Below are positions 31,157-42,270 of a stretch of 64,000 bases of DNA, one piece after another (the stretch's first letter is position 1; each line of letters opens with the position of its first letter). Made by a program: the position numbers and the translations under genes. Under the pieces are notes generated by a model that did not search any database, was not told where the DNA came from, and worked only from the letters and a program-made list of their open reading frames with translations. Source of the DNA: Ancylobacter amanitiformis (lineage in GTDB: Bacteria; Pseudomonadota; Alphaproteobacteria; Rhizobiales; Xanthobacteraceae); contig NZ_JAUSVR010000001.1 in NCBI RefSeq assembly GCF_030814815.1, positions 496,001-560,000 on the forward strand, written 5' to 3'.

Positions 31157-31522
31157 ATGAGCGACGAATTCTTCAGAGCGTCCGGAATCGATACGAACGA
31201 GGGCGCGAATAGCGTGTTCGTCTGGTGTCGCCTCAACGGCCAGGACAGCCACGTCCTCGTGGGCTCCGGCCATGTCGTCCCCGCGGGCAGCATCTTCCCG
31301 CCGGGCATCAAGGCCGGCCAGTTTTCCGTGGTCTTTCCGCTGCCGTTCGACAGTTCCAGCGCGACCATCATCGTCACCGACGACAAGGACGGCAAGAACC
31401 GCCTGCCGGGGGTGAGCATCACGCCCTGCGTCATCCGCGCCGGCTCCGGGCAGGCCATGGCCGCCGCACCCGCCGTCCTGGCGGTTCAAGCGTCCCGCAA
31501 TAACGGCCACCGACCGAACTAA
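31157..31522 (+). CDS. Hypothetical protein at the head of the collagen locus
   Basis: 121 aa. Beta-rich in appearance: VFVWCRLNGQDSHVLVGSGH, then a PAGSIFPPGIKAGQFSVVFP stretch and SSSATIIVTDDKDGKNRLPG. There are no membrane helices and no classical signal peptide. Two Cys residues (in VWCRL and TPCVI) are present. The last 25 residues are Ala-rich. It lies 54 nt upstream of the collagen-like gene on the same strand and is probably co-transcribed. It could be a companion secreted by the same type I exporter or a chaperone; no family recognised. Confidence 0.7.
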   Translation: MSDEFFRASGIDTNEGANSVFVWCRLNGQDSHVLVGSGHVVPAGSIFPPGIKAGQFSVVFPLPFDSSSATIIVTDDKDGKNRLPGVSITPCVIRAGSGQAMAAAPAVLAVQASRNNGHRPN

Positions 31523-31576
31523 GCAGACACTTCAAGGGCTGGACAGGGCGAAACGCACACAACAGGAGAAGAAACC

Positions 31577-33208
31577 ATGAGCCAACTAGCAACAGTCATA
31601 GGTCGGGACATCGCCGGAACGACGATGTTCATCTACTATAACGACGGCGTTAATTTCACGCTTCTGGCCAGCGCCTCCAATACCACGGCCGCGAATGACG
31701 CCCAGGACGGCATCAATGTCGGCTTGGCGTCCTATGCCGCGCTGGTCTACCTGCCGGACGGGTATGATATCGGCAATGTCGTCGTCTACAATCAGGCGGG
31801 CACCATTCAGATACCGGGTACCAACCCGCCCGCCAGCGGCTCCTTCACCATCGCCGCCGTTGCGCCCATCGGGGCGACCGGCGCGACAGGAGCGACCGGC
31901 GAAACGGGGGCGACCGGCGCGACGGGCGAAACCGGTGCGACCGGCGCTTCCGGCGCAACCGGGCAGGATGGCGCAACCGGGGCAACGGGCGCCACAGGGC
32001 AGGCCGGCGCTACGGGCGCGACCGGCGCCAGCGGAGCGACCGGTCAGTCCGGCGCGACCGGCGCGACCGGTGCCAGCGGAGCGACCGGTCAGAATGGCGC
32101 GACCGGCGCCAGCGGCGCCTCAGGCCAGGCCGGCGCGACGGGTGCCACCGGCGCGAGCGGAGCGACCGGGCAGGACGGCGCCACGGGGGCCAGCGGCGCG
32201 ACCGGCGCCAGCGGTGCCTCAGGCCAGGCCGGCGCGACAGGCGCAACGGGCGCCAGTGGAGCGACCGGGCAGGACGGCGCCACAGGTGCCAGCGGTGCGA
32301 CCGGCGCCAGCGGTGCCTCAGGCCAGGCCGGCGCGACAGGCGCCACCGGCGCCAGTGGAGCGACCGGGCAGGACGGCGCCACGGGGGCCAGCGGCGCGAC
32401 CGGCGCCACCGGCGCTTCGGGTCAGGACGGCGCCACGGGAGCGACAGGTGCCGCCGGCGCAACGGGTGCCAGTGGAGCGACCGGGCAGGACGGTGCCACG
32501 GGGGCGACAGGTGCCGCCGGCGCAACAGGCGCTACTGGCGCGACCGGCGAAGCCGGTGCAACGGGCGCCACCGGGTCGACCGGAGAAACCGGTGCAACGG
32601 GCGCTTCTGGCGCCACCGGTGCAACGGGCGCGACCGGCACTTCTGGCGCAACGGGCGAAACCGGTGCCACGGGCGCGACCGGCGCGACCGGCGAAGGGTC
32701 GACCGGCGCAACTGGACCGACCGGACCGACCGGACCGACCGGCGCCACCGGGCCAACCGGTCCGTCGGGCGCCCTGGGCAACCCGGGGAACGGCCACGGC
32801 AACGGCAACGGTCACGGTCACGGTCACGGTCACGGTCACGGTCACGGTCACGGTCACGGCAATGGCAATCACCACGCCCCGTCGGGCTGGAACCGCCATG
32901 TCTGCCAGAACGACCGCATGACCTTCCGCTCCGGCTCGTCCAACAATGATCATGGGCGCACGGGGCCGAGGGGCGGCGGCGGCCATGAAGGGTTTGACGG
33001 CTCCTACCGCAACGTCCTCAAGACCTTGGGCTCGACCCTGACAGCCCACGACATTGGCGGGCGCGGCCTGGCTTCGCTGGGTGCGGCCAACAACAACCAT
33101 CGCCCGTCTGGCGCTGGCGCTCCGGTCAACACGGGGAACAACTCGGGCTCGATCGCTCCGAGCTTCGAGAACCACGGGCACATGATGAATCTCCCCAAGC
33201 ATTGGTGA
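31577..33208 (+). CDS. Collagen-like protein with about 100 Gly-X-Y triplets and a His-Gly tail
   Basis: 543 aa. Residues 1-98 form a Thr/Asn/Gly-rich globular domain without Sec signal. Residues 99-400 are a bacterial collagen tract dominated by GAT, GAS, GET and GQD triplets, with a single break (GEG-STG) near its end and a terminal GPT-rich clamp. A linker of (GH)n repeats follows, then a 110-residue Gly/Asn/His-rich C-terminal region containing one Cys. The triple helix is predicted to trimerise without hydroxyproline. The dense Thr/Ser in Y position suits O-glycosylation, as in Bacillus BclA. No Sec signal plus an adjacent type I exporter implies one-step secretion, with the signal in the C-terminal region. 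Confidence 0.92.
32105..32401. repeat. Three 99-bp tandem repeats inside the collagen-like gene
   Basis: A 33-residue block (11 triplets, starting [19 protein letters not shown]) is repeated three times, starting at 32105, 32204 and 32303. Protein identity between copies is complete and the DNA differs only at silent positions. Such in-frame arrays readily gain or lose units. Confidence 0.9.
32810..32857. repeat. Hexanucleotide array GGTCAC x 8
   Basis: Eight perfect GGTCAC units encode the Gly-His run after the collagen tract. Slippage would change the number of Gly-His pairs without shifting the frame. The antisense frame reads as a meaningless Val-Thr repeat. Confidence 0.95.
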
Positions 33209-40120: not shown

Positions 40121-40197
40121 CGCACGGCGACGGTCATGGCCATCCCTTTCATCGGGACCGGGCGCATCACCGCCCCCGCGCACGGAGGCACAAGACG

Positions 40198-42270
40198 ATG
40201 AACGCTTCAGGTCAGATGGTCTGTCTGAACATGATCGTCAAGAACGAGGCCGACGTCATTCGCCGCTGTCTCGACAGCGTACGGCCGATCATCGACGGCT
40301 GGGTGATCGTCGACACCGGCTCCACCGACGGCACGCAGGACATCATCCGCGACTATCTGCGCGGCGTGCCGGGCGAGCTGCACGAGCGCCCGTGGCGGGA
40401 CTTCGCGCATAACCGCTCCGAGGCGCTGCAACTGGCGCGCACCAGGGCGCACGGCCCGGGCGACTACACGCTGATCATCGACGCCGACGACGCGCTGCAG
40501 ATCCGCGCGGGGGATGGGCTTCCCACCCTCACCGCCGATTCCTACATGGTGACGATCCACGACACATCCCTCGTGTACCAACGCCCGCAACTGGTGCGCA
40601 GCGCGCTGGCGTGGCGCTATGAAGGCGTGCTGCACGAATATCTCACCTGCGAGGGCGCCGCGCCGCACGGGCAGATCCCCGCCATCAGCATGCGGCGCAA
40701 CCATGACGGCGCCCGGCGGAAGGACCCGACCACCTATCGCCGCGACGCGGACGTGCTGGAGGCCGCGCTGCGGACCGAGAGCAACCCGTTCCTCATCGCC
40801 CGCTACCGCTTCTATCTCGCGCAAAGCTATCGCGACTGTCGGAACTGGGAGAAGGCGCTGGAGAATTATCGGCTGCGGGCGGATCTCGGCTTCTGGCAGG
40901 AGGAGGTGTTCATCAGCCTCTATTGCGCGGCGCAGATGATGGAAACACTCGGCCACACCGAGCGGCAGGTGATCGACGCCTGCCTGCGCGCCAGCGACGC
41001 CCTGCCCACGCGCGCCGAGGCGCTGCATCGCGCGAGCCGCCTGTGCCGGCAGAAGGGGCTCTATGAGGAAGGCTACGCGATCGCCCGGCGCGGGCTGGCC
41101 ATTCCCCGGCCCGAAGGGGCCCTGTTCGTCGAGCCATGGATCTATCAGACCGGCCTGCTCGATGAATTCTCGCTCAATGCCTATGGCTGCGGGCGCAAGC
41201 GGGACTGCCTCGACGCGACCCTGAAGCTGCTGGCCACCGGCTACTTGCCGCCCGCCGATGTGGCGCGGGTGCTCGCCAATGCCCGGCTCGCCAGCGAAGG
41301 GCTGCCGCGCGATCTCGCCCCGGCGGGGCCGGATGGGTTGAGCCGTGCCACGCGGCACGCCCTCGCACCCGCGCGCGCGCTCCACTCTCGCCTCAAGGGC
41401 GCACCACGGGTCTTCGTCACCCTCATTGCCAGCCAGCAGGAAGCCCTGGTGCCGCTGTTTCTGGAGCGCCTTGAGGCACTCGACTATCCAAAATCCGCCA
41501 TCACCCTGTCGATCCGCGCGCCCGACAGCACGGACGGCACCGCGACGCGCCTGCACGCATGGATCGCGCTCAAGGGCGCGCTCTATGCCGGGGTGGAGTT
41601 CGAGGCCGACGACGCGTGCGCGCCGCCCGCCGCCTCCATGGTGCCGCGGCGCGACGGCGCCCGTCCCCCCCGCCTCGGGCGTCTGCGCGACGCCGGACTG
41701 CGACGAGCCGTGGAGGCGGGCTGCGATTTCTGCTTCGTGACGGAAATCGGCCACGTCCTGCGGCCGGGCACGCTCCGGGAACTGGTGGCGCTGGATCTGC
41801 CGATCGTCGCGCCGCTGCTGCGGGCGATCGGGCCGGCCGATCCCTATTCCAACTACCATTCAGACATTGATGTGAACGGATACTACAAGGAATTCGGTCT
41901 GTATTCGCTCATTCTCAATCACGACATCTGCGGCATTCTGGAACAGCCGGTCGTCAATGGCAGCTATCTCATCCGCGCCGACATGCTGGATAAGCTATCC
42001 TATCAGGACACGACGCTTCGCGATGACTACGTTGTTTTTTCGGAAAGCGCCCGCAAGCAGGGGATAGGGCAATATCTCGATAATCGGCAGATTTATGGAT
42101 ACATGGTCGGGCGCGACAGCCAGACATCAAATCTCTCCGACGAGATTGCTCGTGCGAGAGACCTGCTGAAGGATGATCCCGGCATCACGGACACCGGGCA
42201 ACACATGATGGCGTCCATCGAGGAGGAAGGACGGCGGCACGCATCCCTCATGCTGGAGACAGCCAGATAG
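40198..42270 (+). CDS. Two-domain glycosyltransferase: GT2-type plus procollagen-galactosyltransferase-like domain
   Basis: 690 aa from ATG 40198. Residues 7-225 are a GT-A domain with the opening LNMIVKNEADVIRRCLDSV, VDTGSTDGT and DxD motif IDADDAL (Asp95-Ala-Asp97). A helical TPR-like middle follows (about 230-395). From 403 (PRVFVTLIAS) a second GT-A-like domain resembles the glycosyltransferase half of animal COLGALT/PLOD collagen-modifying enzymes. LDLPIVAPLLRAI, then YSNYHSDIDVNGYYKEFG at 550-567 and the later NGSYLIRADML align in order with the eukaryotic VVAPML...YSN...GYYK...STFLIDL pattern. The expected DxD of this domain is Thr515-Glu-Ile. A likely substrate is the locus's collagen-like protein. 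Confidence 0.85.
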   Translation: MNASGQMVCLNMIVKNEADVIRRCLDSVRPIIDGWVIVDTGSTDGTQDIIRDYLRGVPGELHERPWRDFAHNRSEALQLARTRAHGPGDYTLIIDADDALQIRAGDGLPTLTADSYMVTIHDTSLVYQRPQLVRSALAWRYEGVLHEYLTCEGAAPHGQIPAISMRRNHDGARRKDPTTYRRDADVLEAALRTESNPFLIARYRFYLAQSYRDCRNWEKALENYRLRADLGFWQEEVFISLYCAAQMMETLGHTERQVIDACLRASDALPTRAEALHRASRLCRQKGLYEEGYAIARRGLAIPRPEGALFVEPWIYQTGLLDEFSLNAYGCGRKRDCLDATLKLLATGYLPPADVARVLANARLASEGLPRDLAPAGPDGLSRATRHALAPARALHSRLKGAPRVFVTLIASQQEALVPLFLERLEALDYPKSAITLSIRAPDSTDGTATRLHAWIALKGALYAGVEFEADDACAPPAASMVPRRDGARPPRLGRLRDAGLRRAVEAGCDFCFVTEIGHVLRPGTLRELVALDLPIVAPLLRAIGPADPYSNYHSDIDVNGYYKEFGLYSLILNHDICGILEQPVVNGSYLIRADMLDKLSYQDTTLRDDYVVFSESARKQGIGQYLDNRQIYGYMVGRDSQTSNLSDEIARARDLLKDDPGITDTGQHMMASIEEEGRRHASLMLETAR

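Follow-up and report, generated by a model that had tools for sequence, protein, structure and literature searches.

The locus considered here occupies positions 31157-42270 of a 64-kb stretch (referred to below as the window) of the 4.84-Mb genome of Ancylobacter amanitiformis, and encodes a collagen-like protein (CLP), a putative type I exporter and a glycosyltransferase (GT) whose C-terminal part is homologous to a domain of animal collagen-modifying enzymes. On the plus strand the genes for a 121-amino-acid (aa) protein, the CLP, an ATP-binding cassette (ABC) exporter, an HlyD adaptor, a Sel1-repeat protein and the GT follow each other in this order, with the gene of a HELGH-motif protein located on the minus strand between the Sel1 and GT genes; the GT and CLP genes are thereby separated by approximately 7 kb, which includes the exporter genes (Table 1). 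An earlier sequence-only reading of the window had assigned positions to these seven genes, all of which were borne out when the gene coordinates were rechecked, and its description of an ABC exporter with an HlyD adaptor, a large Sel1 protein and an HExxH protein was likewise upheld by the family matches and the motif given below.

Domains of the glycosyltransferase

The GT most likely starts at the ATG at 40198, giving a protein of 690 aa, and not at the GTG at 40048, and its closest relatives keep the same MNA start; the GT of Ancylobacter tetraedralis, which represents the closest named locus, is 92% identical to it at the protein level. The GT2 half matches PF00535 and has an intact DAD motif, the helices at residues 177-367 match TPR structures, and no export signal was seen by eye. 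The likeness of the C-terminal domain to COLGALT and PLOD enzymes, which the sequence-only reading had suggested, is now based on alignment by phmmer (COLGALT1 at 5.8e-20, LH3 at 3.8e-9) as well as on profile and fold matches, and residues 399-662 are homologous to the N-terminal domain of COLGALT1 (structure residues 48-321). As profile and fold agree, a match by chance was rejected. The window GT thus contains the N-terminal GT-A domain of the COLGALT type, equally recognizable as the accessory (AC) domain of the PLOD/LH type, and ends after it; neither PF01755 (GT25) nor any Pfam dioxygenase representing a lysyl hydroxylase domain was matched up to an E value of 1, and owing to the absence of these domains classification of the window GT as a COLGALT or a PLOD was rejected.

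Of 21 proteins aligned, 17 have an intact DxD motif in the COLGALT-like domain, whereas the window GT has TEIG at this place. For COLGALT1, catalysis has been placed in the C-terminal domain, and the AC domain of LH3 is described as inactive despite its DxD (PMC13382579); the LH3 accessory domain is furthermore described as dispensable for glucosyltransferase activity, and the activity of LH2 as modulated by its accessory domain (PMC9546862). GLT25D1 carrying D166A-D168A, both in the N-terminal domain, was however reported to be inactive (PMC3244457), so that PMC13382579 and PMC3244457 disagree on the importance of the N-terminal DxD of COLGALT1. Because the COLGALT-like domain of the window GT lacks a DxD, and because this domain is described as inactive in COLGALT1 and LH3, it was rejected as the catalyst and transferase activity probably resides in the GT2 half. 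The possibility of a decaying gene was also rejected, as dN/dS relative to a close relative is 0.24-0.30 in the three folded parts of the GT; for the 45-codon tail it is 1.64, a value based on few changes.

A domain resembling the COLGALT1 N-terminus is in addition encoded at 26 IMG/VR loci (L090-L115), at 24 of which it stands alone as an open frame of 259-294 codons, the other two being cut by contig ends; the one viral domain tested matches COLGALT1 at 2e-22. Collagen repeats were present in four of the 19 viral records searched (four of the five records longer than 20 kb, as against none of the 14 shorter than 16 kb), two of which, L105 and L106, look like the same virus, and in the stretches read these repeats have Thr at 67-85% of Y positions and no Lys. 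The flanks of the viral domain, fetched up to 5 kb, held no repeat of at least 12 triplets, a viral query found no match in the phage collection, and PHROGs returned nothing for seven proteins.

The collagen-like protein, its relatives and their linkage

The CLP matches Pfam Collagen (PF01391) with 144.1 bits as compared to a cut-off of 27.2, and the roughly 100 Gly-X-Y triplets of the sequence-only reading were counted as one run of 92 (residues 99-374) and another of 10 (residues 377-406). Among the first 92 triplets 52 are GAT and 18 are GAS, position Y is occupied by Thr in 59% and Ser in 19% of cases, and the triplet count revealed no Lys in the Gly-X-Y region. As the region lacks lysine, hydroxylysine cannot be the acceptor there, and by composition threonine or serine would fit. 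The N-terminus (residues 1-97) aligns with relatives as a conserved domain, recognizable in Xanthobacter, Blastochloris and the genome G040, while the C-terminus is conserved less strictly and repeat length varies; a Sec signal peptide was not seen, on inspection by eye only. A run of Gly-His dipeptides at 32800-32900 follows the collagen region and is far shorter in L012, a close relative; it might bind metal or reflect repeat slippage.

Threonine occupies position Y in a median of 95% of triplets in 24 GT-linked CLPs as compared to 6% in 21 others, a contrast for which the p-value is optimistic, since a number of Mesorhizobium loci and further close relatives are included among the 24. Left out of the comparison were viral CLPs, duplicate or near-identical genes (L014, L015, L018, L019, L039, L050, L071) and, where a locus or genome has more than one CLP, the second or third (parts of L022, L063 and L067; L070), as well as repeats of the Gly-Asn type (L043, L055) and frames rich in Gly-Pro that stay open on either strand (L053, L054). 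The second CLP of the window genome has 0% Thr at Y and three Lys, and the corresponding Thr values for linked and other CLPs are 93% versus 0% in Blastochloris and 56% versus 2% and 6% in Methylobacterium WSM2598.

A scan of named genomes yielded 21 loci, 19 of which encode a GT of this kind (L033 and L034 were dropped as they matched only residues 3-56), from Ancylobacter, Xanthobacter, Blastochloris, Mesorhizobium, Methylobacterium, Acidisoma, Acidisphaera and metagenome-assembled genomes. A CLP is present on the fetched stretch at 14 of these 19 loci. The sequence-only reading had made the retention of a CLP beside exporter and GT a point on which it could fail, and the CLP is kept at all seven other such loci whose contig reaches far enough (G005, G040, two from Xanthobacter, Blastochloris, G913 and G816), G958 being left out of this count as its contig starts at the ABC gene. 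In the sample of the order the domain profile alone matched nine of 297 genomes, seven of them strongly (our own included), and among the six GT loci beyond our own and that of G040 four have a CLP alongside and one has a contig that starts at the ABC gene. Since the window genome holds just two CLP genes in 4.84 Mb, the chance of finding one within 10 kb of a given gene is by our own arithmetic below 1%, and higher in genomes richer in CLPs. That PF01391 is matched in 13 of 13 GT genomes carries little information, given that such a match is also present in 23 of 30 genomes from the genus. The GT family looks rare in the genome samples searched, as only our own genome was returned both from the class sample (385 genomes, full GT profile at 1e-30, with up to three candidates scored per genome) and from the phylum sample (398 genomes, domain profile at 1e-6); among the nearest relatives a full-length GT occurs in three of 61 genomes, our own included.

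The GTs of several Mesorhizobium loci (L016, L017, L019-L022, L024) continue into a third, GT25-like domain: PF01755 was matched by all three homologues scanned, partially in L016, and one homologue is collinear with COLGALT1 24-502 at 1.3e-40. In the GT of L023 a Sulfotransfer_1 domain takes the place of GT25, and L025 has a weak glycosyltransferase-like third domain. The one Mesorhizobium CLP scanned has an N-terminal DUF4347, and at L067 and L068 several very long CLP frames follow one another, one of which has 2707 codons and 729 triplets. Next to the GT gene of a Mesorhizobium ciceri plasmid lies a gene for an FkbM-family methyltransferase (L056, 6863-8050), whose product might methylate the glycan.

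As regards the remaining genes, the ABC protein is HlyB-like, its best family being TIGR01846 (4.1e-155), although with 517.8 bits it falls short of the curated cut-off of 725.55; the HlyD protein scores 310.6 bits with TIGR01843, above the cut-off of 208.65. No TolC-type outer-membrane gene is found among the genes of the locus, and a search of the locus with one RTX pattern found nothing. As the ABC and hlyD genes overlap by 38 bases and the Sel1 gene starts 3 bases after hlyD, an operon is likely. The repeats of the Sel1 protein match Pfam at 2e-74. The HELGH protein has no significant match in Pfam, NCBIfam or PDB sequences, a profile search against the latter giving nothing below 0.19, and its RRxF-type N-terminus, noted by eye, suggests twin-arginine (Tat) export. 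The 121-aa protein encoded upstream of the CLP recurs in L012, an Ancylobacter relative (90% identity), and in G040 (38% identity). A Crp/Fnr-type gene, which adjoins the GT at two loci each of Ancylobacter and Xanthobacter, may encode a regulator of the cluster.

Table 1. Features of the locus and their positions in the window
Feature	Position	Strand	Remarks
121-aa protein, family not recognized	31157..31522	+	upstream of CLP
Collagen-like protein (CLP), 543 aa	31577..33208	+	Pfam Collagen 1.1e-42
Gly-X-Y region of CLP, residues 99-406	31871..32794	+	mainly GAT and GAS, without lysine
Putative type I ABC exporter, HlyB-like, 860 aa	33319..35901	+	Pfam ABC_tran, ABC_membrane; TIGR01846 below cut-off
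HlyD-family periplasmic adaptor, 466 aa	35864..37264	+	TIGR01843 above cut-off
Sel1-repeat protein, 609 aa	37268..39097	+	11 Sel1 repeats; 3 bases past hlyD
HELGH protein, putative gluzincin-like fold, 293 aa from likely start	39239..40120	-	ORF reaches 40183
GT, 690 aa: GT2, TPR-like helices and COLGALT1-N/LH3-AC-like domain	40198..42270	+	
GT2 (GT-A) domain, GT residues 1-170, probable catalytic domain	40198..40707	+	DAD at 95-97
TPR-like helical repeat, GT residues 177-367	40726..41298	+	model secondary structure; TPR structures matched
COLGALT1-N/LH3-AC-like domain, GT residues 399-645	41392..42132	+	DxD lost (TEIG)
Crp/Fnr-type protein, candidate regulator only	42308..43009	-	place beside locus kept in relatives

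A proposed route and its alternatives

We consider it likely that the locus serves to produce a bacterial collagen, to O-glycosylate it and to export it. Of the similar route proposed in the sequence-only reading the collagen-enzyme domain, now with a profile match, and the linkage to the CLP have stood, whereas the catalytic domain and the acceptor have been reassigned, and the exporter appears to be a lineage-specific feature, since a full ABC gene is seen on the fetched stretch at just four of the 19 named-genome loci (L014, L015, L018, L031). Starting from the observed genes, homologies, synteny, composition and selection, we infer a reaction, a sugar, a cytoplasmic timing, an export step, an order of events and roles for the Sel1 and HELGH proteins as follows. 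The CLP gene would yield, in the cytoplasm, a long Thr/Ser-rich Gly-X-Y chain, upon which the GT, with no export signal seen, would act in the same compartment, its GT2 domain and TPR-like helices transferring a sugar (as a best guess GlcNAc or another UDP-hexose, by analogy with C. difficile SgtA) to the Thr or Ser of Gly-X-Thr/Ser triplets. The COLGALT1-N/LH3-AC-like domain, having lost its DxD in this lineage, may serve as a scaffold or collagen-chain-holding module. The HlyB-like/HlyD pair, together with a TolC-type partner from outside the locus, would export the chain by means of its conserved C-terminal region, and the triple helix would fold outside the cell after export, where glycosylated Thr at Y may stabilize the proline-poor helix. 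The Sel1 protein may perhaps tether chain, enzyme and exporter, and the HELGH protein may conceivably trim the product.

Besides the limited occurrence of the exporter, a number of observations weigh against this route. The stretches of L023, L024, L027 and L028, which end 0.1-5.6 kb upstream of the GT, show no CLP, and L028 also has none in the 10 kb downstream; L026 is a true exception, without a CLP in approximately 9-10 kb on both sides, and CLPs are likewise lacking in 19.5 kb at a second GT of G910 (G910:C39) and in 18 kb at G922 and G964, where the domain is only distantly related. Because the domain stands alone in viral contigs, it is not always accessory to a GT2. The Thr contrast is also uneven: two CLPs encoded on other contigs of the L026 genome have 68% Thr, linked CLPs and those elsewhere have 39% and 41% Thr at Y in Acidisphaera and 67% and 49% in the L032 genome, and M. 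trifolii (L028) has a GT and yet the single CLP read there has 7% Thr. Lower Thr fractions are found in the linked CLPs of L086 (0.36), L029 (0.39), L085 (0.49), L030 (0.56) and the window (0.59), and unlinked CLPs of GT-bearing genomes can be Thr-rich (L057/L058 0.68, L062 0.49, L063 0.41). Some linked CLPs contain Lys, with 29 in one Mesorhizobium CLP, and Thr at Y is described as common in bacterial CLPs generally, with a mean of 31.6% (PMC8968730).

It is also conceivable, though rather unlikely, that both GT domains were ancestrally catalytic, with GT2 adding a first sugar and the COLGALT-like domain a second, so as to form a disaccharide on Thr that GT25 or sulfotransferase domains decorate further, and that the second activity was lost in the window lineage. 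The intact DxD of most aligned proteins, the lineage-dependent identity of the fused third domain (GT25 in Mesorhizobium, Sulfotransfer_1 in L023), the single-domain versions in viral contigs and the inactive GLT25D1 D166A-D168A (PMC3244457) all speak for such a history, but the equivalent domains of COLGALT1 and LH3 are described as inactive (PMC13382579) and, with its DxD gone, this route is closed to the window GT itself. We regard it as improbable that the GT acts on a surface polysaccharide or on some other protein, with CLP, exporter and GT being together only as parts of one surface-biogenesis island; enzymes with GT2 and GT25 domains are frequently polysaccharide builders, the FkbM methyltransferase adjoins the GT on the Mesorhizobium plasmid, and L026 and G910:C39 have no neighbouring CLP, yet a specific collagen-enzyme domain, a TPR-bearing architecture like that of protein transferases and the Thr bias of the linked CLPs argue against it. 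It seems very improbable that we are dealing with a general GT-A accessory domain and that the tie of the COLGALT-like domain to collagen is coincidental.

A wider but tentative suggestion, to which we would not give even odds, is that the COLGALT1-N/LH3-AC domain represents a collagen-chain-handling module common to bacteria, viruses and animals, joined to varied catalytic modules (GT2 with TPR, GT25, sulfotransferase, the GT of LH3); hydroxylysine glycosylation in animals and threonine glycosylation in bacteria would then derive from a shared ancestral enzyme, of which Mesorhizobium keeps the COLGALT two-domain order. Bacterial enzymes that have this domain, which COLGALT1 and LH3 have in common and which is described there as non-catalytic, and that lie near a likely substrate may provide simple systems for studying chain recognition and the purpose of the domain, a possible route to glycosylated recombinant collagen without the need for hydroxylysine, and evidence that bears on the origin of animal collagen glycosyltransferases.

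Comparison with known systems

The exporter genes resemble type I secretion systems of the HlyB/HlyD kind in that an ABC and HlyD pair lies beside a substrate without a signal peptide as judged by eye, and differ in that the candidate substrate is collagen-like. Among the matches listed from open-licence PMC papers (titles and the starts of abstracts) no bacterial COLGALT-like enzyme beside a CLP was described, and the main text of PMC11012932 holds nothing on threonine, or on bacteria beyond one reference.

With LH3 (PLOD3) and mimivirus R699 the window GT shares the arrangement of a GT-A domain followed by an accessory domain, the accessory domains being homologous, but its first domain is closer to SunS and GmaR and it has no lysyl hydroxylase domain. 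SunS/ThuS and GmaR act on bacteriocin peptides and flagellin, respectively, and are not known to have a COLGALT-like domain. The R699 dimer has been proposed in a preprint to form a collagen cleft (PMC11838735). COLGALT1 (GLT25D1) has its N-terminal domain in common with the window GT, and the Mesorhizobium homologue has GT25 too, in the same order; in the window GT, however, a half composed of GT2 and TPR is present instead of GT25, the DxD is lost, and the collagen repeat is without Lys.

A functional parallel that we propose is C. difficile SgtA, a GT-A and TPR enzyme encoded beside bclA3, which is described as transferring beta-O-GlcNAc onto Thr of a collagen repeat (PMC7157674), and the window GT may perform the same class of reaction. 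Both are GT-A and TPR enzymes encoded near a Thr-rich CLP, the repeats of BclA3 being Gly-Pro-Thr; SgtA, however, has 358 aa with GT and TPR domains only, the likeness being one of described layout, and BclA3 is a protein of the spore exosporium, with no exporter in the description of SgtA and BclA3 (PMC7157674). Bacterial collagen glycosylation is already known from SgtA and BclA3, and the putative system of the window is one in which it is combined with a domain of animal collagen enzymes and a type I exporter.

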